A stretch of 32,260 nucleotides of DNA from IMG/VR virus record IMGVR_UViG_3300046812_000093, positions 1-32,260 of that record, one strand, 5' to 3'. Below, in pieces: positions 7,269 through 30,270 of this stretch; position 1 is the first letter of the stretch, and each line of letters opens with the position of its first letter. A model generated the notes under the pieces. That model was not told where the DNA came from and did not search any database. It saw only the letters and a list, made by a program, of their open reading frames with translations. The position numbers were made by a program, and so were the translations under genes. This DNA is from a virus.

Positions 7269-7278
7269 GAATCAACCC

Positions 7279-8388: not shown

Positions 8389-8391
8389 ACC

Positions 8392-9057: not shown

Positions 9058-9064
9058 GCACCGA

Positions 9065-9092
9065 GGGCCAGGGGTAGCTCCCTGGCCCTTTT
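9065..9092 (+). terminator. Rho-independent terminator-like hairpin
   Basis: GGGCCAGGG (9065-9073) and CCCTGGCCC (9080-9088) form a perfect 9-bp stem with a 6-nt loop, followed by TTTT. The TTTCGTTACGG element begins in the T run. Because the next gene has the same direction, it probably attenuates rather than ends transcription, or a new start lies behind it. Confidence 0.65.
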
Positions 9093-9106
9093 CGTTACGG
9101 GAGATT
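9090..9106 (+). repeat. TTTCGTTACGG element, copy d
   Basis: TTTCGTTACGGGAGATT, identical to copies c and e. It starts in the T tract of a hairpin and gives GGGAG seven nt before the TTG start of the DNA polymerase gene. Confidence 0.85.
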
Positions 9107-9110
9107 AAGA

Positions 9111-11174: not shown

Positions 11175-11187
11175 TCGGTCCAAAGAA

Positions 11188-11225
11188 AAAGCCCCGGGGC
11201 TTGCGCTCCGGGGCTTTCCCCCCTT
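11188..11225 (+). terminator. Rho-independent terminator after the DNA polymerase
   Basis: AAAGCCCCGG (11188-11197) pairs with CCGGGGCTTT (11208-11217) around a 10-nt loop, followed by a C/T-rich run ending in TTT. It is flanked by A-rich sequence on the 5' side, so it could also stop transcription from the other strand. Confidence 0.8.
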
Positions 11226-11258
11226 TGACTCACCACAAGACTCAGGAGGCATCGACAA

Positions 11259-13550
11259 ATGCAGCGAGACTCTAGCACAGAGCAATTCAAATTCCTCGCC
11301 ACGCTCGCCTCAGGGATTCCCGAGGGCTCCCACTTCCTCGTCGCCAAGCCCAGCGCCAACGGCCTGCCGTCGCAGGCATGGCGTGAGCAGTACCTTGAGG
11401 GCCAGTGGTACTTCTCGACTGGCTCCAGCAGCAGCAACTGGCAACGACGCCGCGAGGACATGACGGCCGTGCGGGCCATCATCCTCGACGATGTCGGGAC
11501 CAAGGTCGACCCCGACAGCATCGCCGCCGCGCCGACCTGGGTGCTGGAGACGAGCCCCGGCAACAGCCAGTGGGGCTACATGCTGAAGACCTGGGATGAA
11601 GACATCCCCAAGGCCGATGCCCTGATGCAGGCCCTGGTCGATGCCGGCCTGCAGGACAAGGGCGTCAACACCGCCTGCCGGCTGTTCCGCCTGCCGGGCA
11701 GCGTCAACACCAAGCCCGGCCGCGACAACTACGAGGCCGAGCTTCACTCGTTCGACAAGGACATCGTTTACACGCTCAACAGCCTCGCCAAGGCCCTCAA
11801 GGTCAAGCCCGGCAAGCCCCAGGAGCCAAAGCTCGACACAGGCGAGCGGCCGGGTGCCGGCAAGCCGGACCCGTTCATGGTGTGGCTCAACGACCAGGGC
11901 ATGGTGGTCCGCGAGGCTACAGGTGGCTGGTGGGAAATCCTGTGCCCCTTCGCCGAGGAGCATACCGACGAGCGCGTCGACGCCAAGTACCTGCCGAGCT
12001 TCGCCAGCATGAACGGCAAGCACAGGGTCCAGTGCAAGCACGGGCACGGCGAGGACGAGGCAGCCTACGCCAAGCGGTTCATGGCCTGGGCCGCCAAGCA
12101 GGGAGCGCCGACCGGCGAGGGCACCGACCCGGCCGAGCTTCGCAGGATGTTCGCCGCCATCAGGACCGAGCCGCCCGAGCCGCCCAGGCAGCTACCGCCC
12201 AGGGACGACAGCGACCCCGCCGACGAGTACACCTTCGGCACGCTCATCGAGGCCATCGGGCCGATCCCGCCGACCGCCCTGCCCGACCTCGACGAGACAG
12301 AGAAGGGCAAGCCCAAGAAGATTCAGCCTTGCACCATCAACAACATCGAGGCTGGCCTGCGGCACCTGGGCTTCCAGCCCCGGCTCAACCTGATGACCGC
12401 CAGCACCAGCTACATCATCCCCGCGCGGGTCGAGATGCGGCGCTTCGGTGCCAAGACCCGCTACGAGATCGACGACATGATCCGCTGGTCGCTGCGCTCG
12501 GTCTTCAACCGGGTCGGCATCGTCCACGAGCAGAAGGTCGACGCCTGTATCGCCGGGCTCGCCAACAGCCTCTACTGGCACCCCGCCAAGGACTGGATCG
12601 AGTCGAAACCCTGGGACGGCCAGGACCGCCTGGAACACCTCACGAAGTCGGTGACAGCCGCAGACCCCGACCTGTTCCGGCGCTACTTTCGTCGCTGGTT
12701 ATTGCAAGGCGTCGAGGCCGCCTGCGGCTGGGAAGTCAGGCGCGAGGAGCAGAAGGCGCTCTGCCTCGTCCTGGCCGGCAAGCAGGGTATCGGCAAGTCC
12801 CGCTGGCTGGCTACGCTCGCCCCAGGCTACTTCGCCGGGGGCAAGCACCTGTCCCTGGACAGCAGTGTCTCGGGCTCGCGCGACAGCAAGCACGAGGTCC
12901 TGCAGGGCATGGTCGTCGAGCTTGGCGAGTTGGACACCACGTTCACCAAGTCCGCCAACGGCAGCCTGAAGGCGTTCCTGTCCCAAGCGGTCGACGTGTA
13001 CCGGCTGCCCTATGCGGAGCAGCCGATCCAGCGGCCACGCTGCACCTCCTTCGCCGCCAGCGTCAACGACGACCAGTTCCTGCAGGACGACACCGGCAGC
13101 CGCCGCTATGCCGTCATCTGGGTCGACCACTGCGCGGTCGACCACGCGACCGACATGCAGCAGTTGTGGGCTCAGATGCACTCGTACTGGAAGGCCGGTG
13201 AGCAGTGGTGGCTGACGCCAGAGGAGGAGAAGCTCCAGACGAAAAGCAACGAGACGTTCCAGGCCGCTGACGGCATCGCCGATGCGGTCGCCATGCAGAT
13301 CGAGCTTCGCACCGACAACGACCGCTACCCCCTGGAGTGCAGCCTGAACGCGACCGGGGTCCTGATGCTGCTGGGCATGCGCTACGAGGACCGGGCGCTA
13401 CGCCGCCGGGCCAAGGCCGCCTGCACCAAGCTCCTCGGCCCCGAGCAGAACTACCGTCGACGCGGCGGGTCGGCCGAGTCCTGGGCGTTCTACCTCGACA
13501 GCCGCGAAGCAGAGAACCTGGGGGTCAAAGTCCTCAAGCCTCGGCTGTGA
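11259..13550 (+). CDS. Primase-helicase: AEP-like primase plus VapE-type ATPase
   Basis: A 763-residue protein. The N-terminal 190 residues look like an archaeo-eukaryotic primase fold as found in RepB-like phage primases: IILDDVG at 74-80 gives the metal-binding Asp pair, and CRLFRLPGSVN follows near 140. A linker region (about 200-340) contains a possible cysteine/His-bearing DNA-binding part (CPFAEEH...C..GHGE). The C-terminal half is a VapE/VirE-type superfamily 3-like helicase with Walker A GKQGIGKS at about 507-514, acidic Walker B (VVELGEL) and a sensor-type segment (SFAASVNDDQFL). It should prime and unwind at the phage replication fork. It starts 85 bp after the polymerase stop, behind the terminator, with AGGAGG upstream. 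Confidence 0.85.
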   Translation: MQRDSSTEQFKFLATLASGIPEGSHFLVAKPSANGLPSQAWREQYLEGQWYFSTGSSSSNWQRRREDMTAVRAIILDDVGTKVDPDSIAAAPTWVLETSPGNSQWGYMLKTWDEDIPKADALMQALVDAGLQDKGVNTACRLFRLPGSVNTKPGRDNYEAELHSFDKDIVYTLNSLAKALKVKPGKPQEPKLDTGERPGAGKPDPFMVWLNDQGMVVREATGGWWEILCPFAEEHTDERVDAKYLPSFASMNGKHRVQCKHGHGEDEAAYAKRFMAWAAKQGAPTGEGTDPAELRRMFAAIRTEPPEPPRQLPPRDDSDPADEYTFGTLIEAIGPIPPTALPDLDETEKGKPKKIQPCTINNIEAGLRHLGFQPRLNLMTASTSYIIPARVEMRRFGAKTRYEIDDMIRWSLRSVFNRVGIVHEQKVDACIAGLANSLYWHPAKDWIESKPWDGQDRLEHLTKSVTAADPDLFRRYFRRWLLQGVEAACGWEVRREEQKALCLVLAGKQGIGKSRWLATLAPGYFAGGKHLSLDSSVSGSRDSKHEVLQGMVVELGELDTTFTKSANGSLKAFLSQAVDVYRLPYAEQPIQRPRCTSFAASVNDDQFLQDDTGSRRYAVIWVDHCAVDHATDMQQLWAQMHSYWKAGEQWWLTPEEEKLQTKSNETFQAADGIADAVAMQIELRTDNDRYPLECSLNATGVLMLLGMRYEDRALRRRAKAACTKLLGPEQNYRRRGGSAESWAFYLDSREAENLGVKVLKPRL

Positions 13551-13849
13551 GCGAAGCAGCCCTGGAGCGCGCCTGCCGGGCCCACGCCACCTCGCGGGGT
13601 GTCCGGTCGGCCAAGCTCCAGGGCGGCATCGTCGGCGACCCCGACCGGGTCTTCTTCCTGCCCAACGAGCGATGCTGGCTCGTCGAGTTTAAACAGCTAA
13701 ACGGCCGCCTCACGCCCAGGCAGAAGATCGTCCACGAGGAGTACCAGCACCTGGGCCACCCGGTCAGCGTGGTCTACACCACGCTCCAGTTCAAGGTGGC
13801 GCTTGACTTGAAGCTTCAGGCTGCTGTAGACTGCAGGCTCACCACCTGA
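13547..13849 (+). CDS. VRR-NUC domain nuclease
   Basis: A 100-residue stand-alone VRR-NUC protein. GGIVGDPDR at about 26-34 supplies the catalytic Asp, VEFK (E47, K49) the PD-(D/E)XK core, and LTPRQ (Gln59) the helix that follows. Viral VRR-NUC proteins cut branched DNA such as Holliday junctions and flaps, so it probably resolves replication or recombination intermediates before packaging. The GTG start overlaps the stop of the helicase gene (GTGA). A GTTTAAAC site (13687-13694) falls in the E-F-K-Q codons of the active site and forces TTT AAA. Confidence 0.85.
   Translation: MSEAALERACRAHATSRGVRSAKLQGGIVGDPDRVFFLPNERCWLVEFKQLNGRLTPRQKIVHEEYQHLGHPVSVVYTTLQFKVALDLKLQAAVDCRLTT
13803..13832 (+). 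promoter_or_regulatory. Candidate promoter for the SNF2-type gene
   Basis: TTGACT (13803-13808), an 18-bp spacer and TAGACT (13827-13832) lie 26 bp before the ATG at 13858. A 10-bp palindrome TGAAGCTTCA (13809-13818) sits in the spacer and could be an operator. Confidence 0.4.
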
Positions 13850-13857
13850 AGGCAGCC

Positions 13858-15261
13858 ATGCAGTACAACCCGCTCCCGTTCCAGCAGAAGGCGATCTCCC
13901 TGGTCTGCGAGAAGCCTGGGTCCGCCCTCCTCCTCGACCCGGGCATGGGCAAGACGGCCATCACCCTGGCCGCCCACTGCGTGCTGCAGCACCACCAGAT
14001 GATCAAGGCCACCCTGGTCATCGTGCCGATCCGGCCGATGTACCTGACGTGGCCCAACGAGATCAAGAAGTGGGAGCAGTTCAGCCACCTCAAGGTGTCG
14101 ATCATCCACGGCACGGCCGCCCAGCGCTTCGCCGCCATCGAGGCCAAGGCCGACATCTACCTCATCAACCCGGAGAACACCGAGTGGCTGACCATCGCCC
14201 TGGCCGGCAGCCTCGACCGCTTCGGCACCACCCCCGGGCTCCTGGCGGTCGACGAGTCGACCCGGTTCAAGAACGGCCAGAGCAAGCGCTTCAAGGCCCT
14301 GAAGACGATCCTGCCGTTGTTCCCCCGCCGCACGATCCTGACCGGCACCCCGGCCCCGCAGAGCATCGAGGACCTGTTCGCCCAGATGAACATCGTCGAT
14401 GACGGCAAGCGCCTGGGCCGCTACATCACCCACTTCCGCAAGCTGTTCATGTACTCGACGCCGCTCCGCATCGGCGGCGGCCGGACCATCGACGAGTGGC
14501 ATGTCCGGCCGGGCGGTGCCCACATGGTCGCCGAGGCCATCAAGGATGTCGCCCTCAGGCTCCAGGCCGAGGACTACCTGACGATGCCGGCGATCTCGTA
14601 CAACGTCATCCCGGTCGAGCTTCCCAAGGCTGTACGCTCGGTCTACAAGTCGATGGCCGACGATCTCGTGGCCGCTGTCGGCGACCAGAAGATCACGGCC
14701 GTGACGGCAGCCGCCGCGACGATGAAGCTGCGCCAGATCACCAATGGCTGGGCCTACAGCGAGGATGGCTCGGTCAAGGTCCACGATGCCAAGCTCGACG
14801 CCCTGGCCGACCTCGTCGAGGAGCAGCAGGGCACGCCGCTGCTGGTGGCCGTCGCCTTCCTGCACGAGGTGCCGGCGATCCGCGAGGCCCTCAAGAACGT
14901 GCTGCCCAAGGGCACCCCGATCCCCTACCTGGGAGGCGGTGTCGCCCGCCACATCGCCGACGACATCGTCAGCGAGTGGAACGAGGGCAAGCTCCCGGTC
15001 CTGCTGGCCCACCCGACCTCGGTCGCCCACGGGCTCAACCTCCAGGCCGGCGGGCACGCTGTCTGCTGGTTCGGCCTGACATGGAACCTTGAGGAACACA
15101 TCCAGTTGAACGCCCGGGTGTACCGCCAGGGTCAAACCAAGCCTGTGGTGATACATTACCTGACCGCAAAGGACACGGTCGACGAGAGCATCGCCAAGGC
15201 GCTCGTCGACAAGTCCGATCTGCAATCCGCAATCCTTAATCGTCTCAAGGGAACGAAATGA
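13858..15261 (+). CDS. SNF2-type helicase/ATPase
   Basis: A 467-residue protein with both RecA-like domains of the SNF2 group. Motif I is LLDPGMGKTA (about 25-34), motif II is AVDESTRFKN (DEST at about 132-135), motif III is LTGTPAPQSIEDL (about 160-172), and the C-terminal motifs V/VI are HGLNLQAGG and NARVYRQGQ (about 420-428). It is shorter than cellular SNF2 proteins and lacks extra chromatin domains, like the compact phage versions linked with VRR-NUC and VapE genes. It should move along duplex DNA or displace proteins. The stop overlaps the next ATG. Confidence 0.9.
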   Translation: MQYNPLPFQQKAISLVCEKPGSALLLDPGMGKTAITLAAHCVLQHHQMIKATLVIVPIRPMYLTWPNEIKKWEQFSHLKVSIIHGTAAQRFAAIEAKADIYLINPENTEWLTIALAGSLDRFGTTPGLLAVDESTRFKNGQSKRFKALKTILPLFPRRTILTGTPAPQSIEDLFAQMNIVDDGKRLGRYITHFRKLFMYSTPLRIGGGRTIDEWHVRPGGAHMVAEAIKDVALRLQAEDYLTMPAISYNVIPVELPKAVRSVYKSMADDLVAAVGDQKITAVTAAAATMKLRQITNGWAYSEDGSVKVHDAKLDALADLVEEQQGTPLLVAVAFLHEVPAIREALKNVLPKGTPIPYLGGGVARHIADDIVSEWNEGKLPVLLAHPTSVAHGLNLQAGGHAVCWFGLTWNLEEHIQLNARVYRQGQTKPVVIHYLTAKDTVDESIAKALVDKSDLQSAILNRLKGTK

Positions 15262-15575
15262 GAAAACTGAAAGCGCCGGCCAGCCGGCCCGAAGGGTCAC
15301 GCCTCGTCATCGTCAAGCTGCCGCGCGAGATGCCGGACGGCAAGACAACGACCACGCACCCGCTGCTCTGGCTGATCCGCGAGCGCCTGGGCGAGGATAG
15401 GAACAAGTCCGACCTTGCGCGCGACATGGGCGTCCGCCCACAATCGCTCTACAAGTGGGAGCGGCTGTGCAAGGCTGACCGCAACTTCCCGCTGCCGGCA
15501 CCCCGTGCCTTGCAGATCGCCAAGTTTTTCGGGGTCAAGCCGACCCTGCTGCGTCCCGATCTCTTTGGAGCCTGA
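15258..15575 (+). CDS. HTH DNA-binding protein (XRE/Cro-like)
   Basis: A 105-residue protein. After a 30-residue basic, flexible start, residues about 36-70 form the helix-turn-helix (KSDLARDMGVRPQSLYKWER), where the second helix should read DNA. Then FPLPAPRALQIAKFFGVKP fits the following helices. It overlaps the SNF2 gene by 4 nt and precedes the PEP-CTERM genes, so it could switch late or moron gene expression. A perfect 8-bp inverted repeat at 15752-15769 is a possible target nearby. Whether it represses or activates is unknown. Confidence 0.75.
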   Translation: MRKLKAPASRPEGSRLVIVKLPREMPDGKTTTTHPLLWLIRERLGEDRNKSDLARDMGVRPQSLYKWERLCKADRNFPLPAPRALQIAKFFGVKPTLLRPDLFGA

Positions 15576-15579
15576 GAGC

Positions 15580-15831
15580 ATGCCCGCACCGACCCAGTCC
15601 TACCCGATCTCGTTCGACGAGCCCGAGATGAACCTCGTCCTGCAGGGCCTGGGCAAGCTCCCTGCAGAGCGGAGCTTCATGCTCCTGCAGCGCCTGGGCA
15701 GCGAGATCGCCGAGATCAACCGCCGGGCGCAGGAGCCCCCCATGCCGCCCGCCCCCGTGAACACGGGGGGCAGCGACAACGCTGCAGCCCTGGGCATCGG
15801 CGGCGGCGAGGTCCACAATTCCCTCAACTAG
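15580..15831 (+). CDS. Conserved-looking small phage protein (83 aa)
   Basis: The N-terminal 55 residues form an amphipathic helical pair (MNLVLQGLGKLPAERSFMLLQRLGSEIAEI) of a kind often seen in small phage proteins with the pattern LNLVL..LGKLP. The C-terminal part is Pro/Gly-rich and disordered. It starts 4 nt after the previous stop with GGAG upstream, and its stop overlaps the AGGAG site of the first PEP-CTERM gene, so all four genes (15258-17148) may share a transcript. Role unknown. Confidence 0.6.
   Translation: MPAPTQSYPISFDEPEMNLVLQGLGKLPAERSFMLLQRLGSEIAEINRRAQEPPMPPAPVNTGGSDNAAALGIGGGEVHNSLN
15752..15769. repeat. Perfect 8-bp inverted repeat, operator-like
   Basis: CCCCCGTG and CACGGGGG are separated by AA. 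The site lies in codons for Pro-Val-Asn-Thr-Gly, 177 bp after the HTH gene and about 70 bp before the first PEP-CTERM gene. The tight symmetry suits a dimeric HTH protein, or a small RNA hairpin. Confidence 0.45.
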
Positions 15832-15839
15832 GAGTGTCC

Positions 15840-16487
15840 ATGAAGCAAGCCCTTCTCGCCCTCGCCCTCACCGCCGCCTCGCTGGGCGCTAACGCAGGGA
15901 TCGTTGGCTTCGCCAACGAATTCAGCGGTGGCGTCAAGTGCGCCAACCTCGTCACCGGCTGCGCGGAGTTGGAGACGACCGCCATTGCCGGCGGGGTCCA
16001 CTTCGTCCTGCAGGGCACGATGACCGGCACGGAATTCATCACCGGCCTCTACGGCAACATCGGCCCCTACAGCGGCGTGACGGTGGCTAACCTCACGGGT
16101 GCCACCAACACCATCGGCGGCGGGTTCAGCTTCGCGCCGGACACGTTCAAGGCCGATGGCGATGGGTTCTTCGACTGGAACCTCGACCTGTCCAGCAACC
16201 CGCCCCGCTTCAGCGGCACCGACACGCTGTCGTGGGACTTCCTCGGCATCACCCTGGCCCAGACCAACGACATCAGCGTCAACGGCCCGGTCGGCAAGAC
16301 CGGGTTCCAGTACGCCATCCATGCCCAGGGCCTCGTGAACGGTGGCAGCGGCTGGGACAGCCAGACAGGCTGCCCTGACTGCTCCATCACCCCGGTCATC
16401 GCGGTACCGGAGCCGGGCACGGTCAGCCTCATGGTTGCGGGACTGGCTGCCCTGGGCATCAGCCGCCGCCGCCGCCAGGACAAGTAG
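15840..16487 (+). CDS. PEP-CTERM exported protein 1
   Basis: A 215-residue secreted protein. The ATG at 15840 has AGGAG 5 nt upstream and was preferred over the GTG at 15834. Residues 1-19 are a Sec signal peptide ending ANA before Gly. The mature part is beta-rich and Gly/Asn/Thr-rich. The C-terminus is a complete PEP-CTERM sorting signal: VPEP at 189-192, a hydrophobic segment (VSLMVAGLAALGI) and a basic end (SRRRRQDK). In hosts with exosortase such proteins are cut at the PEP motif and put on the surface or into exopolysaccharide. The signal is host-type, so the phage depends on host exosortase. Base composition resembles the neighbouring phage genes, so the gene is not an obviously recent import. 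Confidence 0.9.
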   Translation: MKQALLALALTAASLGANAGIVGFANEFSGGVKCANLVTGCAELETTAIAGGVHFVLQGTMTGTEFITGLYGNIGPYSGVTVANLTGATNTIGGGFSFAPDTFKADGDGFFDWNLDLSSNPPRFSGTDTLSWDFLGITLAQTNDISVNGPVGKTGFQYAIHAQGLVNGGSGWDSQTGCPDCSITPVIAVPEPGTVSLMVAGLAALGISRRRRQDK

Positions 16488-16496
16488 CGGGGTCTT

Positions 16497-16520
16497 CCCA
16501 GGCACCTCTTTAAGCCTGGG
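16497..16520 (+). other. Hairpin between the two PEP-CTERM genes
   Basis: CCCAGGC (16497-16503) and GCCTGGG (16514-16520) form a perfect 7-bp stem with a 10-nt loop. No T run follows, so it is not a standard terminator; it could stabilise or tune the transcript before the AAGGAG of the second gene. Confidence 0.5.
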
Positions 16521-16539
16521 TGTTCTAAGGAGAATCGAC

Positions 16540-17148
16540 ATGCGGAAATCTTTGTGGGCGCTGGTCCTGGCGGCAATCGCCCTGCCGGCCAGCGCGGTAG
16601 GCAGCGTCATCTGCGATAGCTGCGACTACATCAACGGTCAGGTGGCGACCAACCTGGGGCTGTACAACCCGACGCACTTCGACAACGGCACGTTCAGCAA
16701 CGCCACCACGGGGCAGAACGGCAACTTCGACAACTTCTGGGTCTTCAGCATCAACCCGGCCGGCAACACGGCCATCAACGCGATCTTCCAGCCGGTCAAC
16801 AACATCAGCAACTTCGATGTCAAGCTGTTCGGCGTGACGAGCGACATCTGTGCCGCGAACACCGGCACCGCTGGCGGACTCTGCACGGCGTTGACGCTGG
16901 GGGCGCTGCTCGACGACCCGGGATCGAACCCCAACTTCGTCTCCAACATCAACTTCCAGACGCTGAACGCGGGGGTCTATGCCTTTGAAGTCTCGGGGAC
17001 CATCTCGGGTCTGGTGGCGGGGCAGCCGGCCTCGTACACCGGCAACCTGCAGGTCACCCCGGTGCCCGAGCCCGAGACGTACACCCTGGTCCTCGCCGGC
17101 CTGGGCGTCATGGGCGTGGTTGCCCGCCGCCGCAAACGCGAAGATTAG
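16540..17148 (+). CDS. PEP-CTERM exported protein 2, FxDxF-like
   Basis: A 202-residue secreted protein with a signal peptide (residues 1-20, ending ALPASA before Val) and a full PEP-CTERM tail: VPEP at 175-178, a membrane segment (TYTLVLAGLGVMGVVA) and RRRKRED. The middle holds NFDNFWVFSIN and ISNFDVKLFG, matching the Phe/Asp-rich pattern of the FxDxF group of PEP-CTERM proteins. A cysteine pair (CDSC) follows the signal peptide and another pair lies near residues 105-116. AAGGAG is 7 nt upstream. It shares little sequence with protein 1 outside the sorting signal, so the two are not a recent duplication. A terminator follows. Confidence 0.9.
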   Translation: MRKSLWALVLAAIALPASAVGSVICDSCDYINGQVATNLGLYNPTHFDNGTFSNATTGQNGNFDNFWVFSINPAGNTAINAIFQPVNNISNFDVKLFGVTSDICAANTGTAGGLCTALTLGALLDDPGSNPNFVSNINFQTLNAGVYAFEVSGTISGLVAGQPASYTGNLQVTPVPEPETYTLVLAGLGVMGVVARRRKRED

Positions 17149-17168
17149 CCCCCAGGCTACCAACCCCC

Positions 17169-17190
17169 GGCCCGCTTCGGCGGGCCTTTT
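17169..17190. terminator. Convergent terminator with UUCG loop
   Basis: GGCCCGC (17169-17175), TTCG, GCGGGCC (17180-17186) and TTTT form a perfect 7-bp stem with the very stable UUCG loop. It ends the rightward transcript after the second PEP-CTERM gene; the stem would also form in the opposing late transcript. Confidence 0.85.
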
Positions 17191-17204
17191 CGTTACGGGA
17201 GATT
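17188..17204 (+). repeat. TTTCGTTACGG element, copy e
   Basis: TTTCGTTACGGGAGATT, starting in the T tract of the terminator just as copy d does. No rightward gene follows; a GTTTAAAC site (17207-17214) and the end of a leftward gene come next. This shows the element is not only a ribosome binding site. Confidence 0.85.
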
Positions 17205-17216
17205 GTGTTTAAACGC

Positions 17217-17414
17217 TCACCGGCCCCGGAGAAGCTCGACGAGCTTGGCCTGCTTGATCGCCTCGGCCGCCGGGTCGAGCGGGGCCGCCTTGGTGAAGCT
17301 GATCCCGGTCGCCGGGTCCGGCCCGGGCGGTGCCACCACCGGGGTCGCCACGGGCGGCCCGATGCCGGCATTGCGCTCGCGGTCGGCGTTGGTCTTGCGA
17401 AAGATGTCTGCCAT
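17217..17414 (-). CDS. Small protein downstream of the fibre (65 aa)
   Basis: The last leftward gene. The ATG at 17414 has GGAG upstream and lies 14 nt after the fibre stop. The 65-residue product has a basic start (MADIFRKTNADRERN), a Pro/Ala-rich middle (PVATPVVAPPGPDP) and a helical end (AAEAIKQAKLVELLRG). No family recognised; genes at this place are often fibre assembly or small virion proteins. Confidence 0.55.
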   Translation of the reverse strand: MADIFRKTNADRERNAGIGPPVATPVVAPPGPDPATGISFTKAAPLDPAAEAIKQAKLVELLRGR

Positions 17415-17428
17415 GTGTAGCTCCGAGG

Positions 17429-19558
17429 TTATCCGACACGCATCCAGAGGCCGACGCCCCCGGCCGTCGATGCGCCGATGTTGCGCCATGTGCCGAATGT
17501 GATGCTGGTGGCGCTGCCGCCTGTGTACCCACCCCATGCGAGGGGGTTGCTGCCGCTAGCGGCAAACGTGCCGAGGCCGGTGAGCGCCGCACTGCCGCCA
17601 GGGAGCGTGGCCTGCCCGAAGACGATGGCACCGATGGGGATGCTGGCTACAGTAGGTCCAGTATCAATAGCAATAGCGTACCGATTACCTGAGGTATCAG
17701 AAATAGAACAAGGAAAATTCCCATATGGGATTCTCATCTTCTCCAGCGGTGAGGTCGGTCCTGTACCACCAGTCTGAGCAGTGGCAAAGACAATTTGACC
17801 TGAAGATGCAAGACCACCAACTTGTGAACCTCGTTCAACCCAAATACTAGCAATAACACTTGGAAAGGCAATATCACGGAATGATGAGAATGCAATGCCG
17901 CCAGCAGTATAGGTATTTGTATCACCACTGCCACCGCCTAGATTTTGGATATGGATGAAGTTATTCCAATCTCCAAGACTGTCGGTGTCGTTCCTGATAT
18001 TGATGGCTCCGTTGCCGAGGGAAGGCAACTCCGCAGCACGCCCCAGCAACAGCCGGCCACCTGACATCGTCAGTTCATTCCGGCTGCGGACGTAGCTGTA
18101 CAAGCTCCAGTCTGTGGCACCGATGCTGCCCACGTTCATCCCGAGGGCGTACCGCGCGGCCTCCCCCGAGCTATCGTCATACCATGCGATTTGTACGCCG
18201 TTGCCGTTGGTCGTATCACCAACCAATGCCAAAGTCGCTGCTGCGCCGCTAGACACACCTTTCAGCTTGAGGATGGCAGAGCCGTTGCGCTGGATGCTCA
18301 CGCCGTTGACGTTGGGGGTAAGGCCGATGCCGATGTTGCCGCTGTTGTCGATCCGCATGCGTTCAACCGTGGCGTTGTCGTTAGCCGTGAGGAACAGCAG
18401 GTTCGATCCGTAGTCGGTGTCGCTGAGGCGGTTGTAGATCACTGACAGTCCAGCCTGCGCGACCTCAGAGCCGCCAGACTGGATGGCCGAGAAGACCATG
18501 TACCTCTGGAGCGGCGTAGCGCCAGCGCCGGGGTATGGCGAGCCGACATTGAAGTTGCCGTTGCCTACGAACAAGGCGTAGCCGGGATTGCCGGGGCCGA
18601 TGCCGACATTGCCTGTAGCCGTGATCGTCACCCTCTGGCTGCCTCCTGCCCAGAAGGCCATCGGCCCGCCATCGCCGCTGAGAACCAGACCCGTGCTGCT
18701 TCCCTCGGGCACGGTGATGCTGCCGCCCGAGAAGCCGGTGCTGTCGAGCAGCCTGATGCCGACGCCTGCACCGCCAGCACCCGCACCCCCCGTGCCCCGG
18801 ATCGTGCCGATCACGTCGAGATGGATGCCTGTCGTGTTGGGGCTCGTGCCGATGCCCAGGCCGTTGGTCGTGAACCGGGCGATCTCGGCGGTGCCGCCGG
18901 GCATGAAGCGGATGTTGCTCGATGCCGCAGAGGCCATCAGCGCCAGCCCCTGGGTGGCGTTGCTGAAGATCAGCCCCGTGACGGACACCGCCGGCAGACC
19001 CGTGTAGCCGCTGCTGGTGGTCCCGATGAGCGTGCGCTGGCCGCTGCTGTTGACCGCATTGAAGATCGAGGTCGCAAGGGTGCCGCTGCTGTTGTTGGTG
19101 ACGAAGAAGCCTGCGTCTCCGTTGAAGCTCTCAAGGACCCCGATGTCGTCGAGCGCGGTCAGGCCGTTCTCGGCCAGGATGCCGCCGACCACCGTGAGCG
19201 TGCCGTCGACCGTGGCGTTACCAGTGATTTCGGTGTTGCCGGCGATGTTGCCGCTGTAGCCTGCGGATGACCACTGGCCGACCTCGACCCCCATGACGGC
19301 CACGCCCATGACCCCGGCCGAGGCCCGGTACAGGCCGGTGCCAGTCTCCGAGGAGAAGGCGAAGGCCGGCTGGGACACCGTGCCGTCGATCAGCCGGAAC
19401 GGGGCGATCATGCCGCCCCGGCCGTTCCTGTCGAGCGAGTCGGTGATCGCCTGGGCGATGTCGTTCTCGGTCGTGTTCGCCCAGGCCGCCTGGATGACGG
19501 TGTTGGGGACGACCGGCGGCAGCGGCAGGCTGTAGGTGCCGGATACGTTACGGGGCAT
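17429..19558 (-). CDS. Tail fibre protein
   Basis: A 709-residue, Gly/Ser/Thr/Asn-rich protein with the build of a trimeric phage fibre. The N-terminus (MPRNVSGTYSLPLPPVVPNTVIQAAWANTTENDIAQAI) is the virion-attachment type often shared between fibres. After it come repeated beta-strand units of the type NVGIGxxPxx (for instance NGLGIGTSPN, NVGIGPGNPG, NIGIGLTPNV), expected for a beta-helical shaft. No intramolecular chaperone (S74) domain is seen. It should bind the host receptor. The DNA for the distal part (17641-18000) has only 45% G+C by direct count, far below its surroundings, which points to replacement of the receptor-binding part. Confidence 0.85.
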   Translation of the reverse strand: MPRNVSGTYSLPLPPVVPNTVIQAAWANTTENDIAQAITDSLDRNGRGGMIAPFRLIDGTVSQPAFAFSSETGTGLYRASAGVMGVAVMGVEVGQWSSAGYSGNIAGNTEITGNATVDGTLTVVGGILAENGLTALDDIGVLESFNGDAGFFVTNNSSGTLATSIFNAVNSSGQRTLIGTTSSGYTGLPAVSVTGLIFSNATQGLALMASAASSNIRFMPGGTAEIARFTTNGLGIGTSPNTTGIHLDVIGTIRGTGGAGAGGAGVGIRLLDSTGFSGGSITVPEGSSTGLVLSGDGGPMAFWAGGSQRVTITATGNVGIGPGNPGYALFVGNGNFNVGSPYPGAGATPLQRYMVFSAIQSGGSEVAQAGLSVIYNRLSDTDYGSNLLFLTANDNATVERMRIDNSGNIGIGLTPNVNGVSIQRNGSAILKLKGVSSGAAATLALVGDTTNGNGVQIAWYDDSSGEAARYALGMNVGSIGATDWSLYSYVRSRNELTMSGGRLLLGRAAELPSLGNGAINIRNDTDSLGDWNNFIHIQNLGGGSGDTNTYTAGGIAFSSFRDIAFPSVIASIWVERGSQVGGLASSGQIVFATAQTGGTGPTSPLEKMRIPYGNFPCSISDTSGNRYAIAIDTGPTVASIPIGAIVFGQATLPGGSAALTGLGTFAASGSNPLAWGGYTGGSATSITFGTWRNIGASTAGGVGLWMRVG

Positions 19559-21197
19559 TTTGTTGGTCCTCGATTGCGCGGGCCGTGCCCGCACCGACTG
19601 TGCCGCCGCCCCGCACCGACACCTTGCGGAGCGCCTGCAGGATAGCCTCCTGGGCCCTGGGGGCCAGCCGGCCCATGAGGAAGTCCTGCGCGGTCTTGGT
19701 CCCGTAGCCGGCCAGCGACAGGGCCCCGGCGATGGCCGGCACCGACATGCCGCTCAGGCCCGCACCGCCCATGATCCCCATGCCGGTCAGCGCCCGGGAC
19801 ACCGTGCCCGAGTCGGGGAGCTTGGTCTGCATCGTCTGGCCCAGCCGGGCAAGCTCCTGCTGCGGAGCCTCGCCCCGGATGTACTGGCTCTTGTTGGGCG
19901 TCCGGTCTACAGTCCTGGCCGCCCTGGTCAGGACGGCCGGCGAGTAGGCGCTGGGCACCCCCTCGCTCGCGGCGGCCCCGGTCGTTTTGGCGGCCTGCTG
20001 CACGGCCTTGAGGGCTGGGTAGCCCCGGTCGAGCGCGGCTATTTCGCTACGGGTAGTTGCACCCTGGAGGGCTCCGCGCCACGTCTGGCCGTACTCGTGC
20101 GCGACCTTGTTGAACAACTGGCCGAGGTCCTGCTGGGCCGGGTCCTGGGAGCCCATGTAGCGGGCAGCCAGGGTCTTCATCTCGCTTTCGGTGCCGTGCG
20201 CGCCTGCGGCCGTGGCCTGGACCCCGGGGGTCGGGTTCTGCATGTGCTTCAGGCGGATCGCGTTGAACGTCTCGTCCACGAGATCGCGCTGGGCCTGGGA
20301 GATCGGCAGCCCGGCCGACAGCGCCCTGAGGTCGGGCTGGTAGGTCACGCTGGCGTAGGGCAGGCCCTCCTTGGACAGGGCCGTCTCGTAGGCATCGCTG
20401 ACGGCCTTGCGGGCGGTGTCGACCGACTCGGCTGCCGCCTTCGGCGCACCGGCCGGCAGCACCGCCTCGCGGGTCGCACGCTGCCAGTCGGCCATGCCCT
20501 CGGCCCTGCGTGCCGCCAGGGGCGCACTGGCGAGCGGCACCGACAGGGCACCCTCCTCGCTCTTGCCGATGGCCTTGCCCAGGGCCGTGCCCTTCTGCGC
20601 CATGCCCTGGCCGAAGGTCGGCTTGACGCCCACAGCTTCAAGGGCGACGGTGTCGACGGCCTTGTCGCCGATGGGCTTGGCGACCCGGCCCAGGGCCTTG
20701 GTCAGCAACTGTCCGCCCGCCGCGCCTGCGGCACCGATGCCGCCGGCCTTGGCACGCTCTGCCAGATCGCCGGGGGTCATCGCTGCAGCGCCGGCACCCT
20801 GGGCCGCGATCTGGGCGAGCGCACCGCCGGGGATCAGCGCCAGGGGTGCCTGGGCACCGATGCCGCCCGCGATCTCGCCAGCGGTCGTCTGCCAGCCCTC
20901 GGGGCGGTACTTCTGGTAGAGGGCCGCGTCCTCCTCGTCCTTGGACGTGTCGGCCCCGACCAAACCCTTCAGCCCCTGCCACGCCTTGGCCGCCTCGGCA
21001 CCGGCACCGACCGTGAATTTCTCCAGGCCGCTCATGCCTTTGTCGGGGGAGTAAAGCTCGCGGTCGGCCGCGATCCTGCGGGCGGCCTCCTCCGGGTCGG
21101 TGGCGCGGCGGCCAGCCGGCTTGGAGATGGCATCCCACTCGCCTGCAGACGCAGGCTTTGAGATGGCGTCCCACTCGTTGCCGTTGGCGATGTTCAT
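19548..21197 (-). CDS. Probable internal virion / DNA ejection protein C
   Basis: A 549-residue Ala/Gly-rich protein. The N-terminus contains an exact double motif EWDAISKPA (about residues 8-16 and 20-28), related to repeats at the start of many phage virion proteins. A long Gly/Ala-rich hydrophobic region (about 105-165, AGEIAGGIGAQAPLALIPGG) could enter membranes; the rest is helical, ending in another small hydrophobic Gly/Ala part (about 475-505). In podoviruses, three consecutive genes of this type encode proteins that leave the particle with the DNA and form a channel across the host envelope. The start overlaps the preceding stop by 4 nt, and the stop overlaps the fibre start by 11 nt. 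Confidence 0.6.
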   Translation of the reverse strand: MNIANGNEWDAISKPASAGEWDAISKPAGRRATDPEEAARRIAADRELYSPDKGMSGLEKFTVGAGAEAAKAWQGLKGLVGADTSKDEEDAALYQKYRPEGWQTTAGEIAGGIGAQAPLALIPGGALAQIAAQGAGAAAMTPGDLAERAKAGGIGAAGAAGGQLLTKALGRVAKPIGDKAVDTVALEAVGVKPTFGQGMAQKGTALGKAIGKSEEGALSVPLASAPLAARRAEGMADWQRATREAVLPAGAPKAAAESVDTARKAVSDAYETALSKEGLPYASVTYQPDLRALSAGLPISQAQRDLVDETFNAIRLKHMQNPTPGVQATAAGAHGTESEMKTLAARYMGSQDPAQQDLGQLFNKVAHEYGQTWRGALQGATTRSEIAALDRGYPALKAVQQAAKTTGAAASEGVPSAYSPAVLTRAARTVDRTPNKSQYIRGEAPQQELARLGQTMQTKLPDSGTVSRALTGMGIMGGAGLSGMSVPAIAGALSLAGYGTKTAQDFLMGRLAPRAQEAILQALRKVSVRGGGTVGAGTARAIEDQQNAP

Positions 21198-22681
21198 TCG
21201 CGCACCCGGCGCTGGCCGTCAGGGGTGATGAACGGCGTGCCCGAGGGCAGCCGGGACGCCTCCAGGGCGCTGTTTACACGCACAGGAGCCCCAGGCTGCT
21301 GTGCGCCACCCTGGGGTGCAGCGCCTGCGCCCGGGATCGGGCTGCCCTGGACCCGGCGGTTGGGGTTGGCGAATTCGCCGGTCTGGTACTTCCTGGCAAG
21401 CTGCTCGATGGCGTCGAGCGCCGCCGCGCGCTGCTGGATCGGCAGGCTGCTGTCGGCGACGTTGCCGGCCATCGCCTTGTAGAGGGCCACGTCCTTGTCG
21501 GACTGCGGGCCCTCCATCCGGGGCTGGGCCATCACGAGCGCACCGCCCACGGTGTTGAGCTTGGCGGTCGCCTCGGCACCCTTGGTCGAGGCCCCGAAGA
21601 AGTTGGCGGCGGCGTCGACCTTGGCACCCATGCCCGAGCCCGTGGCGTTCTTCAGGTAGCCGCGCGCCTCGCCGACGAGGTCGATCAGGTGCTGCGGGTC
21701 GACCTGTCCGCCCTTGTTGCCCGCACCGCCGGCACTGAGCTTCGGGCCGTAGGCCCCGGCCGCATAGGGGACCTGCTGGCCCTGGGCGTTGATGGTCGAC
21801 AACTGGTTGGTCTTGCCGTTGTGGAAGACTGGGGCTTGCGTGGTCGGGTCGGTCCCGACAGGGGTCCACGTCCCGGCCGCGTTGGCCCCGCCCTCCTTCA
21901 TGCCGGCAATGACGCGGAGTGTCTCGTCGTGGCGGGCCTTCTCCTGCTCGGTCAGCAGGCCCAGGCGGCGATGCTCCTGCAGCGTCAGGTTGCCCTCGCG
22001 GGCCTTCTGCAGGGCCGTGATCCGCGCCTCGATCTGCTTGAGCTTCAGTTCCTGGCCGTAGGCCGGGTCCTCCATGAAGCCCTGGTCGGTCATCGTGCCG
22101 CCCACGGTCTTCAGCGGGGCCTGCGACTCGGCGTACTGCTTCAGCGCCTGGGCCTGGAAGGGCTCGTAGCCCGCCCCGGCCTGCTGGGCAGCCAGGGCCA
22201 GGGTGAGCTTGTTCGCCCCGGCATTCGACTGGCGCTTGTACATCTCCTCCATCGCCGACCGATCCGGCGGCTGCATCAGCCGCTGCTGCTCGGCCATCGC
22301 CTGCTGCTCGCGCTGCTGGATGTTGGCGTAGTCGGCCGCCAGCGGGTCGCCCGGGCCCTGGGGCACAGGAACAGGGCTAGACGGCCCTCCAGGCGCTCCA
22401 ATCGGCGCGGGAGGGGTAGCACCAGGGCGAGCGGCCATCGCCTGCGGCAGGGCCGTCCTGGGCGGTCCTGGCGGCATCGGCTGGGGCGGCGGCTGCTGCG
22501 GCGGCGGCATCTGGGGCATCGGAGCCACGGGGGCCATCGGGCTCGGGCCGCCGGGCATGCCGCCGGCACCCGTGGCGAACGAGCCCGGCTCGTTCCCGCG
22601 CAGGGCGTTTACACGCGCCGCGCCGGGGGTGTAGCCGGGCTGCAGGTCGCCCAGGATCGAGTCGATGGCGTCCTCGTACAT
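21194..22681 (-). CDS. Probable internal virion protein B
   Basis: A 495-residue protein. After an acidic start (MYEDAIDSILGDLQPGY) there is a long Pro/Gln/Met-rich, low complexity region (about 35-95, PPPQQPPPQPMPPGPP), then a long helical, Gln/Ala/Lys-rich part with coiled-coil character, and a C-terminal SRLPSGTPFITPDGQRRVR segment typical of phage virion proteins. It overlaps its neighbour by 4 nt and should form part of the ejected inner body of the capsid. Two GTTTACACG sites lie in it (21272-21280 and 22607-22615), both within Arg-Val-Asn codons. Confidence 0.55.
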   Translation of the reverse strand: MYEDAIDSILGDLQPGYTPGAARVNALRGNEPGSFATGAGGMPGGPSPMAPVAPMPQMPPPQQPPPQPMPPGPPRTALPQAMAARPGATPPAPIGAPGGPSSPVPVPQGPGDPLAADYANIQQREQQAMAEQQRLMQPPDRSAMEEMYKRQSNAGANKLTLALAAQQAGAGYEPFQAQALKQYAESQAPLKTVGGTMTDQGFMEDPAYGQELKLKQIEARITALQKAREGNLTLQEHRRLGLLTEQEKARHDETLRVIAGMKEGGANAAGTWTPVGTDPTTQAPVFHNGKTNQLSTINAQGQQVPYAAGAYGPKLSAGGAGNKGGQVDPQHLIDLVGEARGYLKNATGSGMGAKVDAAANFFGASTKGAEATAKLNTVGGALVMAQPRMEGPQSDKDVALYKAMAGNVADSSLPIQQRAAALDAIEQLARKYQTGEFANPNRRVQGSPIPGAGAAPQGGAQQPGAPVRVNSALEASRLPSGTPFITPDGQRRVRE

Positions 22682-22690
22682 GGGACCTCC

Positions 22691-23107
22691 TCAGGTCGGG
22701 CCACCCATGCCGGCCTGCGGCTGCAGGTAGGGGTCGGGGGTCACCGGGGGCGGCTGGTAGCCGACACGCTGCTGCAGCGGCAGCGCATTCTGCTGGGCCT
22801 GCCGCTGCTGCTCGGCGAGGTCGGCAAGCTGCGAGCGCCGGTCGCCCATCACGTTCGCCTGCTGGGTGTTCACGTCGCGCTGGCCGATGCCCGCCATCAC
22901 GTTGCCGGCGATGTTGCCGATGGCCGACAGGGGGCTGGCTGCGCGCACCGTGCGAGCGCCGCCGCCCTGGATCATGTCGGGCATCTGCGATGTTTGGCGC
23001 AGTTGGTTTACGAGCGCCTGTTTGCGTGCGATGCTTTGATCAGCAGCGTTGTTGCCGCCCTGCTGCATCATGTAGTTGAGGAGCATCTGCTCGTTCTGCG
23101 GGTCCAT
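22691..23107 (-). CDS. Small Gln-rich virion protein (138 aa)
   Basis: A 138-residue protein, very rich in Gln, Met and Ala (MMQQGGNNAADQSIARKQALVNQLRQ), with one moderately hydrophobic Gly/Ala/Ile segment (about 60-73, LSAIGNIAGNVMAG). Composition and position between two probable internal virion genes suggest it belongs to the same inner body. The start has GGAG in a good position. Confidence 0.5.
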   Translation of the reverse strand: MDPQNEQMLLNYMMQQGGNNAADQSIARKQALVNQLRQTSQMPDMIQGGGARTVRAASPLSAIGNIAGNVMAGIGQRDVNTQQANVMGDRRSQLADLAEQQRQAQQNALPLQQRVGYQPPPVTPDPYLQPQAGMGGPT

Positions 23108-23119
23108 CTCGATCTCCTG

Positions 23120-24253
23120 TTAAATCGCCATCGCCGCGATGCCGGCCACCGAGCCGATACCGGACATGAGGCTTTGGTTGGCCTGCTGCTTCGCGTTGTA
23201 GGCGTCCATGCCGGCGCTGTACTGGTTCTGCGCTGCCTGGGAGTAGTTGGCCCCGCCTGCGCTCGTCGAGGGGTTGAAGTTGGGCATGTTGGGCATGGAC
23301 ACCTGGGCTCCAGTGAGCAGGGCGTTCATCTCGTTGAGCGGCATCTGCCGCTGCTGCGTCTGCTCGGCGATGTCCTGCTGGCGCAGCGTGTTCTGGTACT
23401 GGCTGGCCTGCAGGGCCTGCTGGAAATTCTGCTGGCCCGCGCCCGACATCATCCCGAAATTCTGCTGGTTGGCCGCCAGCCCCTGACCGAAGCCCTGGGC
23501 TTGTGCCGCGTTCTGGAATTGCCCGGCCTGCAGGTTCTGGTTGAAGCCGGCCTGCTGGCCCTGCAGGGCCATGTTGAATTCGTTGGCCTGCATGCCCGAG
23601 GCCGCGTTCATCGCGTCGTATGACTGGCGCGACTGCTGATCAGCGAGGTTCTGCGACTCGCGGTTCCAGGCTTCACTGCCCCGGGTGAGCCCCATGTTCT
23701 GGAGCTTGCCCTCCAGGGCCGACTGCGCCTGGGCGTTCTGCGGGGCCATGCGCTGCAGGTTCGCCTGCAGGACTTGGTTGAACGTCTGGTTGTTGGCCGT
23801 GGGGATGCCCTGGCCGGCACCCTGGATGCCACCCAGGATGCCCTGGCCTGCACCCTGGGTCTGAAACTGGCTGGGATCGAGGGCCCCGGCCTGGACACTC
23901 TGGCCCTTGGCGGCGAGGTTGTTCCAGTCGAACGGGTTCGCCATCGCCTCGCCGGCACGGCCGATCTGGGCCTGGGCAAGCTGGCTCTTGCCGAGGTCGA
24001 CCGCCTGCTGCGAGTCGAGCGCAGCCTGCATCTGCGGGTCGAGCGTGGTGTTCTGCGTCCACTTGGTGACGGTCTTCCCGGTCGCCGGGTCGATCATCGA
24101 CGACGAGTCCCACTTCTGCGTCCCGAAGGGAGTGATCTGGTCCGGCCGGTTGGCCCAGTCGGCACGGGTCTGCGCTTCCTGACTTGAAGCCGCAGTCTTC
24201 TCGGCCATCGCCGAGTAGTCGGGCGGCGGCGGGGGTCCTGACTTCTTGCCCAT
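23120..24253 (-). CDS. Probable internal virion protein A, Gln/Asn-rich
   Basis: A 377-residue protein starting MGKKSGPPPPPDYSAMAEKTA, a start shared by a widespread group of podovirus virion proteins. It is extremely rich in Gln, Asn and Ala, with QNA.AQ repeats (for instance NQNLQAGQFQNAAQAQGFG), which make long helices. The end (NQSLMSGIGSVAGIAAMAI) is a short hydrophobic tail. It probably makes the first layer of the ejection apparatus or the capsid core. The ATG at 24253 overlaps the stop of the acetyltransferase-like gene. Confidence 0.55.
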   Translation of the reverse strand: MGKKSGPPPPPDYSAMAEKTAASSQEAQTRADWANRPDQITPFGTQKWDSSSMIDPATGKTVTKWTQNTTLDPQMQAALDSQQAVDLGKSQLAQAQIGRAGEAMANPFDWNNLAAKGQSVQAGALDPSQFQTQGAGQGILGGIQGAGQGIPTANNQTFNQVLQANLQRMAPQNAQAQSALEGKLQNMGLTRGSEAWNRESQNLADQQSRQSYDAMNAASGMQANEFNMALQGQQAGFNQNLQAGQFQNAAQAQGFGQGLAANQQNFGMMSGAGQQNFQQALQASQYQNTLRQQDIAEQTQQRQMPLNEMNALLTGAQVSMPNMPNFNPSTSAGGANYSQAAQNQYSAGMDAYNAKQQANQSLMSGIGSVAGIAAMAI

Positions 24254-24678
24254 CAGTGGGTCCTCCGTGGCGCGAGCCACTTGCATTCCTCGCGGCGCAT
24301 CCGCAGCAGGAACAACGAGCCATCGGGGTGTGCCCCGTCAAGCTCGACCACGAGCGAAAAGCCCAGGCGACGATTGATGTCGAGCGCGACGAGATTGTCG
24401 CTCGGGACGAAGGCCAGGACCTGATTGCAGCCCATGACGTTGAACGGATAGTCGAACGCCGCGTGCAGCAGCCGCTTGTCGAGCCAGCCGGGATCGCCGG
24501 CCATGTGCATCACGCAGGATGCCTCGTTGTAGCTGTCGTAGCCCACCACGCCCCTGAGGACACTCGGATCGCGGTCGGAGATCGAGCCGATGCAGCGGAT
24601 GTTCGCCGAGGGCACGAGGCCGATCCGGCTGCATAGCCAGTACACCAGGGCGTTCTGCGGCTGGGTGGCGATGCTCAC
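24253..24678 (-). CDS. GNAT-fold acetyltransferase-like protein
   Basis: A 141-residue protein. A GTG start at 24678 overlaps the stop of the preceding tail gene. VLRGVVGYDSYN followed by SCVMHMAGD, then LLHAAFDYPFN.MGCNQVLAFVPSDNLVALDINRRLGF is the signature of the phage GNAT-like family found in tail regions of many podoviruses. The residues VP-SDN-ALD.N..LGF fit the acetyl-CoA-binding part (motif A/B). The cell target, if any, is unknown, and such proteins may be virion parts or modify host proteins early after entry. Confidence 0.8.
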   Translation of the reverse strand: MSIATQPQNALVYWLCSRIGLVPSANIRCIGSISDRDPSVLRGVVGYDSYNEASCVMHMAGDPGWLDKRLLHAAFDYPFNVMGCNQVLAFVPSDNLVALDINRRLGFSLVVELDGAHPDGSLFLLRMRREECKWLAPRRTH

Positions 24679-26309
24679 AGTACACCCCCAGGCTCCACAA
24701 GCGCCTGCCAGCCGACGAACAGCGTGTCGGCCGAGGCGCGGACCTTCATCGCCAGGGCGGCGTAGCGGCCGGTGCCGGTGGCCCCGGTCCAGGCCTCGTA
24801 GCTCTGGCCCGAGCCGGACCAGACGGCCACGTCCCACAGGCCCACGTCCCAGGCTCCCGAGCCGGCCCCCAGGTAGGCCGGGGCGCTGCCGACGATCTCA
24901 AGGTTCCACTCGCTGTTCAGCGCCGCCTGGATGCCTGGGGCTGAATCGGAGATGAAGCTCGGCCGGACCATCTGGAACCGCTTGACCCGGACTGCCTCGC
25001 CCAGGGGCTGGAATGTGGTGACGACGATGCCCTCAAGGTCGGCACCCGAGATGGCATCGACCTGTCCATCGGTGCCGCCCTCAAACATCTGCCAGATGTT
25101 GCCCGAGAGGTCGCCGGCAAAGGTCTTGCCGTTGAAGCTGATCACCGTCAGGATCGGGTAGCCGCGCAGGATGGCGAATGCCTTGTTGTTGACCTCGTAG
25201 ACCCACTGCAGGTTCTCGATGTCGACCTCGGCCCGGTTGATCATCAGCAACTGCTCGTGCGGCAGGAAGCAGATTTCCCAGTAGCGGGTGTCGAGCGAGT
25301 TTGCGATCTCGACCGCCAGGGCGCTGTTGATGTTCGACGCGATCTTCGGGTTCTCCCACTGGCCGTCGCCGCGCATAAGCTCCGACATGAAGCACATGCC
25401 ACGCTCGGAGAGCAGGGCTACATCCTGCTGGTAGTTGGAGAAGAACCGATTGCCGACCGGGACGCGGCCGATGAACCAGCGGCCGACCACTTGGAACGTG
25501 CTGGCCGAGGCCGGGTCGTCGCCACCGTAGACCAGCACGTCGCCCTGGTTGGCAACGATGACAAGCTGGTTGTTGACGCCAACGCCGCTCGACCCGTCAT
25601 AGGTCCAGTTGATGAGCGCCTGGAGCGAGCCACCGTTGGGCAGCATCGAGCCGAAGTCGAAGGCGGTCGCCGTGCCGGCGTACTGGCCGAAGGGCAGGTA
25701 CCACGCCCTGGTGGTGTCCTTCTCGATGAACCAGACCCGGTTCTTGTAGACCGTGACGAAGCTGAAGAAGTTGGGGTTGACGCCCAGAATCTGGTTGGCC
25801 CCGGCACCGAGCGTTATCTGTGTAAACGTCGTGCCATCGTAAATCCAGTAGCCAGACCCAGGATTCACCATCAGCAGCACATGCGTGCCGACATTGGTCG
25901 TGAAGTTGAGCGAGGTCCACTCGCCGATGGGCGCACCCGTGGGCACCGCCAGCACCGGGGTCGGGACGAAGCTCGACGGATGCGTGGTGGTGACGTTGTA
26001 GACATCGCCTGCGGCCGTGGCGGCCAGAAGCTGGTTGTTGCCGGTGGGCGACTGGTACTTCATCTGGCTCCGCACCTCGCCCGAGAGGTGACTCAGCCAG
26101 CGGATGTAGCCCCGGCGCATCTGGCAGCCCAGCGTGCGGGGGATGAGGTTCTCCAGGCGGATCGCCGTGTTGGGGTTGCCGCCCGGCAGCGGCTGGGTCA
26201 CGTCCAGGCCGCCCAGGGGCGCACCGAACGGGTACGCCTGATGGTTCTGCGTGGCGCTCGACCGCCTGGGAGTCGTGCGACGTGGGCCCTGGTAGGGTTG
26301 CAGGCTCAT
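24675..26309 (-). CDS. Tail hub / DNA-stabilisation protein (P22 gp10-like)
   Basis: A 544-residue protein. Near the N-terminus (about 30-60) PFGAPLGGLDVTQPLP..NPNTAIRLENLIPR.LG...R.GY is the pattern shared by P22 gp10-like packaged-DNA stabilisation proteins; the same Gly-Asp-Val/Pro-Leu-Pro-Gly-Gly-Asn start is found in many podoviruses. The body is beta-rich with Tyr/Trp-containing strands, as expected of a propeller-like tail hub. It should close the portal channel and carry the fibre. The start overlaps the upstream small gene by 4 nt (ATGA). A GTTTACACA-type site is found at 25819-25827 on the minus strand. Confidence 0.7.
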   Translation of the reverse strand: MSLQPYQGPRRTTPRRSSATQNHQAYPFGAPLGGLDVTQPLPGGNPNTAIRLENLIPRTLGCQMRRGYIRWLSHLSGEVRSQMKYQSPTGNNQLLAATAAGDVYNVTTTHPSSFVPTPVLAVPTGAPIGEWTSLNFTTNVGTHVLLMVNPGSGYWIYDGTTFTQITLGAGANQILGVNPNFFSFVTVYKNRVWFIEKDTTRAWYLPFGQYAGTATAFDFGSMLPNGGSLQALINWTYDGSSGVGVNNQLVIVANQGDVLVYGGDDPASASTFQVVGRWFIGRVPVGNRFFSNYQQDVALLSERGMCFMSELMRGDGQWENPKIASNINSALAVEIANSLDTRYWEICFLPHEQLLMINRAEVDIENLQWVYEVNNKAFAILRGYPILTVISFNGKTFAGDLSGNIWQMFEGGTDGQVDAISGADLEGIVVTTFQPLGEAVRVKRFQMVRPSFISDSAPGIQAALNSEWNLEIVGSAPAYLGAGSGAWDVGLWDVAVWSGSGQSYEAWTGATGTGRYAALAMKVRASADTLFVGWQALVEPGGVL

Positions 26310-26539
26310 GGCAGGGCGTTGTAGTAGGGCTGCTGCTGCGTGCGACACTGGGCCATCGACTGAGCCTGAGTCTCACAGTCCTCCTGGGCCCCGGACGCAC
26401 AGACGTACTGCCCATGCTCGTCGGTGCAGATGTAGGTCTGCCGGGAGAAATAGGCCCCTGCGGCCGGCGTCCCCACGTTGGGATTGGGGACGATTTCGAC
26501 CTGAGGAGTGATCACCCAGCCTGGAGGAAGCGTTGCCAT
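26306..26539 (-). CDS. Small virion protein with cysteines (77 aa)
   Basis: A 77-residue protein starting MATLPPGWVITPQVEI; the second half has four cysteines (ICTDEHGQYVCASGAQEDCETQAQSMAQC), perhaps disulfide- or metal-bound. Its ATG is inside the TTTCGTTACGG element (copy f) read in the opposite direction. It overlaps the next gene. Small proteins at this place could be minor tail or head-completion proteins. Confidence 0.55.
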   Translation of the reverse strand: MATLPPGWVITPQVEIVPNPNVGTPAAGAYFSRQTYICTDEHGQYVCASGAQEDCETQAQSMAQCRTQQQPYYNALP

Positions 26540-26555
26540 TTCGTTACGGGGAATT
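26539..26555 (+). repeat. TTTCGTTACGG element, copy f
   Basis: TTTCGTTACGGGGAATT, again preceded by CCA. It lies between two leftward genes, with CAT at its left end (start codon of the 77-residue gene on the minus strand) and TTA at its right end (stop of the connector-like gene). It therefore runs against the local transcription. Confidence 0.85.
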
Positions 26556-27336: not shown

Positions 27337-27351
27337 GCTGTATCCCCAGGC

Positions 27352-28044: not shown

Positions 28045-28111
28045 GAGGGTTCTCCTTGTGCGCGGGATGTTTGGGAATCTAGGCTGGCCCATCCCACTGA
28101 AGCCTGAGCGT

Positions 28112-29082: not shown

Positions 29083-29094
29083 GGCGTGCTTGCC

Positions 29095-29703: not shown

Positions 29704-29728
29704 GTGGTTCTCCTGAAGCCTGGGGCTC

Positions 29729-30202: not shown

Positions 30203-30223
30203 TGGAGGTGTCTCCTGAAGCTG

Positions 30224-30249: not shown

Positions 30250-30270
30250 AATACTTGACAAGGAAACCGA

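Follow-up and report, generated by a model that had tools for sequence, protein, structure and literature searches.

Recombination is an ordinary route by which phages vary the part of the virion that meets the host, and mosaic tail fibres are a well-known outcome. In the portion of PMC10684548 drawn on here, recently emerged mosaicism between families or lifestyles is reported for tail fibres and tail spikes only, and the corresponding portion of PMC9786124 describes recombination, between genera, in the tail fibre gene of Litunavirus phages.

The fibre gene described here is carried by an IMG/VR virus record of 32,260 bases, which was taken whole as the window for analysis; it may be less than a whole genome, because several related contigs measure approximately 38–42 kb. 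Among named phages (best 8 of 11 records), its major capsid protein is nearest to those of the Stenotrophomonas phage BUCT555 (66.3% identity) and the Myxococcus phages Mx8 (56.5%) and Mx9 (55.7%). The fibre N terminus is 60% identical to that of BUCT555 and 47.5% identical to that of Mx8, and at E 1e-5 these fibre matches span residues 1–48 only in BUCT555 and residues 3–120 only in Mx8 and Mx9. The features of the locus are as follows.

17429–19558, minus strand: tail-fibre gene, an open frame of 709 amino acids beginning MPRNVSGTYSLPLPP, with PHROG and Mx9 matches
19184–19558, minus strand: conserved N-terminal part (approximately codons 1–125), conserved in relatives
17648–17980, minus strand: AT-rich segment (codons 527–637), defined by segment, change-point and codon-use analysis
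17729–17758, minus strand: GC-rich seam within the segment (codons 601–610, PTSPLEKMRI), third-position G+C 80%, permutation p of about 0.017 (weak)
17432–17647, minus strand: conserved GC-rich C-terminal tip (codons 638–709), identified by identity to relatives, the predicted fold being confident from about its start
17609–17647, minus strand: conserved stretch at the right edge (codons 638–650), ASIPIGAIVFGQA, identical to relative L102 at 36 of 39 bases
17217–17414, minus strand: small gene of 65 amino acids (MADIFRKT...), directly downstream of the fibre gene
15834–16487 and 16540–17148, plus strand: two tandem PEP-CTERM genes (Pfam PF07589)

The fibre gene is the final large gene of a minus-strand late block. 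Its residues 153–611 match PHROG 18345, ‘tail fiber protein’ (E 2.9e-6), this tail fibre family being its sole PHROG match at E 0.01, and residues 3–120 share 47.5% identity with the putative Mx9 tail fibre. The Pfam search gave no match at E 0.01; matches of pieces of the fibre to nec1 (0.074) and Beta_helix (0.045) fell short of the Pfam cut-off and were judged to be chance, and the PDB sequence search gave no match. The N-terminal part is, from general knowledge of fibres, presumably the one that attaches to the virion. The small downstream gene has matches at 12 loci, two of which (L088 and L095) repeat other contigs in the set; the match in L089 comprises residues 46–65 only, at the contig end, and those in L097–L099 comprise residues 1–19 only.

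Beyond the fibre and the small gene sits the PEP-CTERM pair, carrying a surface-sorting signal, which we judge unusual in a phage. The PEP-CTERM-type C-terminal pattern matches 10 other contigs (L004/L020/L095, L025/L088, L086, L089, L090, L091, L092, L093, L094 and L096, slashes joining loci of one contig), of which L089 is near-identical to the window; loci lacking a match often stop short of the region.

The distal part of the fibre gene departs sharply in composition from the rest of the window. A direct count over positions 17641–18000 gives 162 G or C in 360 bases (45.0%), the same as in the preliminary description of this DNA, and the lowest 360-base stretches of the window, starting at 17644–17649, have 44.7% G+C (z = −5.7). 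With stretches starting at 16941–18340 set aside, the next-lowest is 57.2%, at 8072, and the remainder have a mean of 66.9% (s.d. 3.3). The maximal AT-scoring segment, 17648–18004, scores 35.2, against 8.4 for the runner-up in the window and 11.2 for the highest of 300 shuffles in 12-base blocks. Third-position G+C (GC3) is 26% in codons 527–637 and 85% in the remaining fibre gene, and the best segment score in 2,000 codon shuffles was 22.2 versus 101.4 observed. Change-points within 3 log units fall at codons 525–528 and 636–639, which places both edges to within about 2 codons. First- and second-position G+C of the segment lie mostly within the range of the remaining gene, the exception being the 15-codon block 526–540, in which second-position G+C is low (0.20). 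As the preliminary description had stated, the minus-strand frame runs through unbroken, open over all 709 codons, and codons ending in A or T dominate (82 of 111; GC3 0.261). Its placement of the patch near the C terminus is correct as to nearness, but the patch is not at the end: the 72 codons that follow (638–709) are conserved, GC-rich and of ordinary composition. The segment alone has no PHROG or Pfam match.

The codon choice of the segment is foreign to the phage. The mean log codon probability under the usage of the phage is −2.22 in the segment and −0.96 in the rest of the fibre; across the 15 remaining open frames of the window, no 111-codon stretch falls below −1.47 by this measure or below 0.69 in GC3. 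Isoleucine is encoded by ATT at 8 of its 11 positions and asparagine by AAT at 5 of 6, versus 92% ATC and 92% AAC, respectively, in the other frames. The amino-acid composition broadly resembles the rest of the fibre, although isoleucine is somewhat raised and leucine lowered.

The right edge of the segment coincides with an abrupt gain of similarity to relatives. Immediately left of codon 638, DNA identity is 17/33 to L102, 18/45 to L025 and 20/45 to L020; over the first 13 tip codons it rises to 36/39, 34/39 and 33/39, with residue identity of 13/13, 11/13 and 9/13, and over the tip residue identity is 53/72, 50/71 and 42/70. GC3 just left of the edge is 0.09–0.13, compared with 0.73–0.82 in the relatives, and the predicted tip turns confident near codon 638, where the block pLDDT rises from 51 to 81. 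Weak protein similarity to the same three fibres reaches into the segment over 11–15 codons (codons 623–637: 5/11, 3/15 and 7/15). This pattern is best read as the expected trace of a crossover at a conserved anchor beside a domain boundary, the donor fibre having carried a tip of the same kin; selection on the conserved protein alone could also explain much of the DNA likeness at the ASIPIGAIVFGQA stretch. At the left edge the composition shifts at codons 526/527 and similarity to G001/L016 extends to about codon 532; comparison with relatives revealed no clear anchor there. Composition thus switches at both edges, and a switch in DNA identity is seen at the right edge alone.

Relatives were collected with the protein encoded at 26554–27336 (best 80 of 97 confirmed loci), with the small downstream gene (12 loci) and, for L102, with the tip alignment. 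The fibre N terminus is shared with relatives, and matches elsewhere in the fibre are patchy and mosaic-like. The same patch in all close relatives, which the preliminary description had named as the sign of an old and native feature, was not obtained: none of seven complete close-relative fibres contains a comparable AT-rich segment. The minimum 100-codon GC3 is 0.75–0.84 in L016, L020, L086, L090, L093 and L094, all distinct contigs, and the L102 fibre is GC-rich throughout, with GC3 of at least 0.73 in every 30-codon block except the first (0.57), which lies mostly upstream of the start codon. The close relatives therefore do not have the patch as a common native trait. An eighth close relative, L025, has a GC-rich tip and a split fibre. 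The latter (18079–18351 and from 18398 onward) changes frame after codon 90, which may reflect either misassembly or disruption of the gene.

More distant loci are less uniform. In L069, positions 9648–10007, at and just past the fibre C terminus, have 42.8% G+C against a locus mean of 58.8%, possibly a second case of the same process; dips in other distant relatives are shallower. The AT-richest 360 bases lie wholly within the fibre in 4 of 28 related loci (L044, L055, L067 and L078), at 56–57% G+C, in a set that contains repeat contigs and incomplete fibres. AT-rich distal fibre parts may thus recur among relatives. Contigs from other IMG/VR records represent the same population at 98.6–100% identity (L005–L012 and L089, L005 and L008 being one contig). 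They cover 7220–17280 and 19381–32260 of the window and none spans 17281–19380, so that the segment is seen in a single assembly only.

Within the segment, the GC-rich seam separates AT-rich parts with GC3 of 23% and 15%. It encodes a motif similar to ERMRI, which recurs in these fibres (VERMRI at codons 398–403). Either coincidence or the remnant of an anchor may account for the seam, which is at odds with one clean import.

The preliminary description had suggested a search against phage fibres of other hosts; no donor came to light in searches of viral_contigs, genome_contigs, phages and plasmids. Peptide patterns yielded no donor in viral_contigs or genome_contigs, and neither did tblastn in phages and plasmids or blastn in phages. 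The tip alignment had no match in genome_contigs and six loci in viral_contigs, of which only L102, which is GC-rich, lay on a new contig. Among the candidates set aside, 21 phage records found by tblastn (cyanophages, Pelagibacter and others; E 0.3 and up) begin to match at codons 374–399 and end by codon 470, short of the segment; blastn matches in phages comprise just 24–41 bases (E 0.04 and up); another tblastn search gave weak matches (E 5–8); L084/L085 match the segment weakly (29%, E 0.11); and L097–L099, reached through the small downstream gene at 46–47% G+C, have no fibre match. These searches reach only fairly close relatives, and we estimate that a donor below about 70% identity could escape them.

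The foreign codon choice, the sharpness of both edges, the lack of the segment in close relatives and the identity jump at the right edge together lead us to regard the segment as probably a fibre module that recombination brought in from a phage of lower G+C whose fibre carried a related tip. In the proposed sequence of events, co-infection or a resident prophage would bring two fibre genes together, and strand exchange would occur within short conserved sequences bordering the module, for which the ASIPIGAIVFGQA stretch is the candidate right anchor. The exchange would swap the stretch before the tip, keeping the frame, the conserved N terminus and the C-terminal tip. Its likely effect, deduced as are the donor and the exchange step, would be an altered distal shaft or receptor-facing surface. 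To the preliminary description the replacement looked recent; that is justified only insofar as the codons have yet to converge on the usage of the genome.

The role of the segment bears on the reading closest to this one, in which the receptor-binding part itself was replaced. It overlaps with the gain of a module from a lower-GC phage and differs just in the role of the segment. Because it precedes the tip, the segment may be distal shaft or part of a receptor-facing surface, and its distal position and the approximately 15 tip-family-like codons inside it (623–637) make replacement of the receptor-binding part plausible; conservation and GC-richness of the final 72 residues speak against it, and on balance we consider it unlikely. 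Of the corresponding claim in the preliminary description, origin from another source is borne out by codon use, edges and relatives, but replacement of the receptor-binding part does not follow, the final tip being conserved and the segment lying before it. Structure prediction for codons 420–709 (AlphaFold2) has a mean pLDDT of 42.7, too uncertain to use. A fold search with that model gave the Mu fibre as its best match (E 2.2e-3), unconvincing at a TM-score of about 0.1, and the fold search with the tip gave nothing better than E 2.4, every Z being below 2.

A more tentative extension, to which we give little credence, is that the fibre family is built of cassettes bounded by short conserved motifs also serving as anchors for recombination, namely the ERMRI-type motifs in the interior of the fibre and, at the tip, the ASIPIGAIVFGQA stretch. 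If so, phages of very different G+C could swap modules in frame, and the seam at codons 601–610 would be a native anchor that survived where two imported pieces meet.

A metagenome assembly chimera, in which the assembler joined a piece of the fibre of another phage into the contig, is improbable. The segment does occur in one record only, and the near-identical contigs stop either side of the fibre (L006 ends at 19586 and L008 at 19381; L089 starts at 17280). Against such a join, the reading frame is kept across both edges of the segment, the gene is open over 709 codons, the last 15 codons of the segment weakly continue the protein sequence of the tip family, and contig ends show no clear excess at the distance of the fibre (0.07–0.27 per kb) over positions closer to the anchor gene (0.08–0.32 per kb; 62 of 80 loci, the last 18, L068–L085, omitted).

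We find it equally hard to credit an old native feature in which local selection, acting on slow codons or on a regulatory or structural nucleic-acid element, maintains AT-richness. The four loci with their AT-richest stretch inside the fibre and the fall of L069 at the fibre end would suit it, yet the former reach only 56–57%; the feature is absent from the seven close relatives, and the shift sits in third positions, extends over 111 codons and begins and ends abruptly. Between 17150 and 18300, promoter- and terminator-like matches are at chance level, the single promoter-like match inside the segment scoring 9/12. Hypermutation in place, by a diversity-generating retroelement or otherwise, has only the distal position in the fibre in its favour and is scarcely credible, the 32-kb record having no second copy (template) of the segment and a search of the genome against itself with 17201–19600 giving two weak matches, both outside it.

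Gain of a module from a lower-GC phage would make this locus a clean natural example of apparent module exchange across a large G+C gap within one fibre gene, and the placing of one edge to about 2 codons at a conserved stretch could help to map the joints of fibre modules. Like the tail fibre gene recombination of Litunavirus phages in the part of PMC9786124 referred to above, the event would lie in the fibre gene; there both genera are named, whereas here no donor was found. The locus also resembles the mosaic fibres and shuffled receptor-binding proteins treated in the cited part of PMC10684548, in that part of the fibre appears to have been exchanged and the N-terminal part kept. It differs from those mosaics in that the exchanged part is internal, ahead of a kept C-terminal tip, and was recognized by its codon use, because no donor is known.
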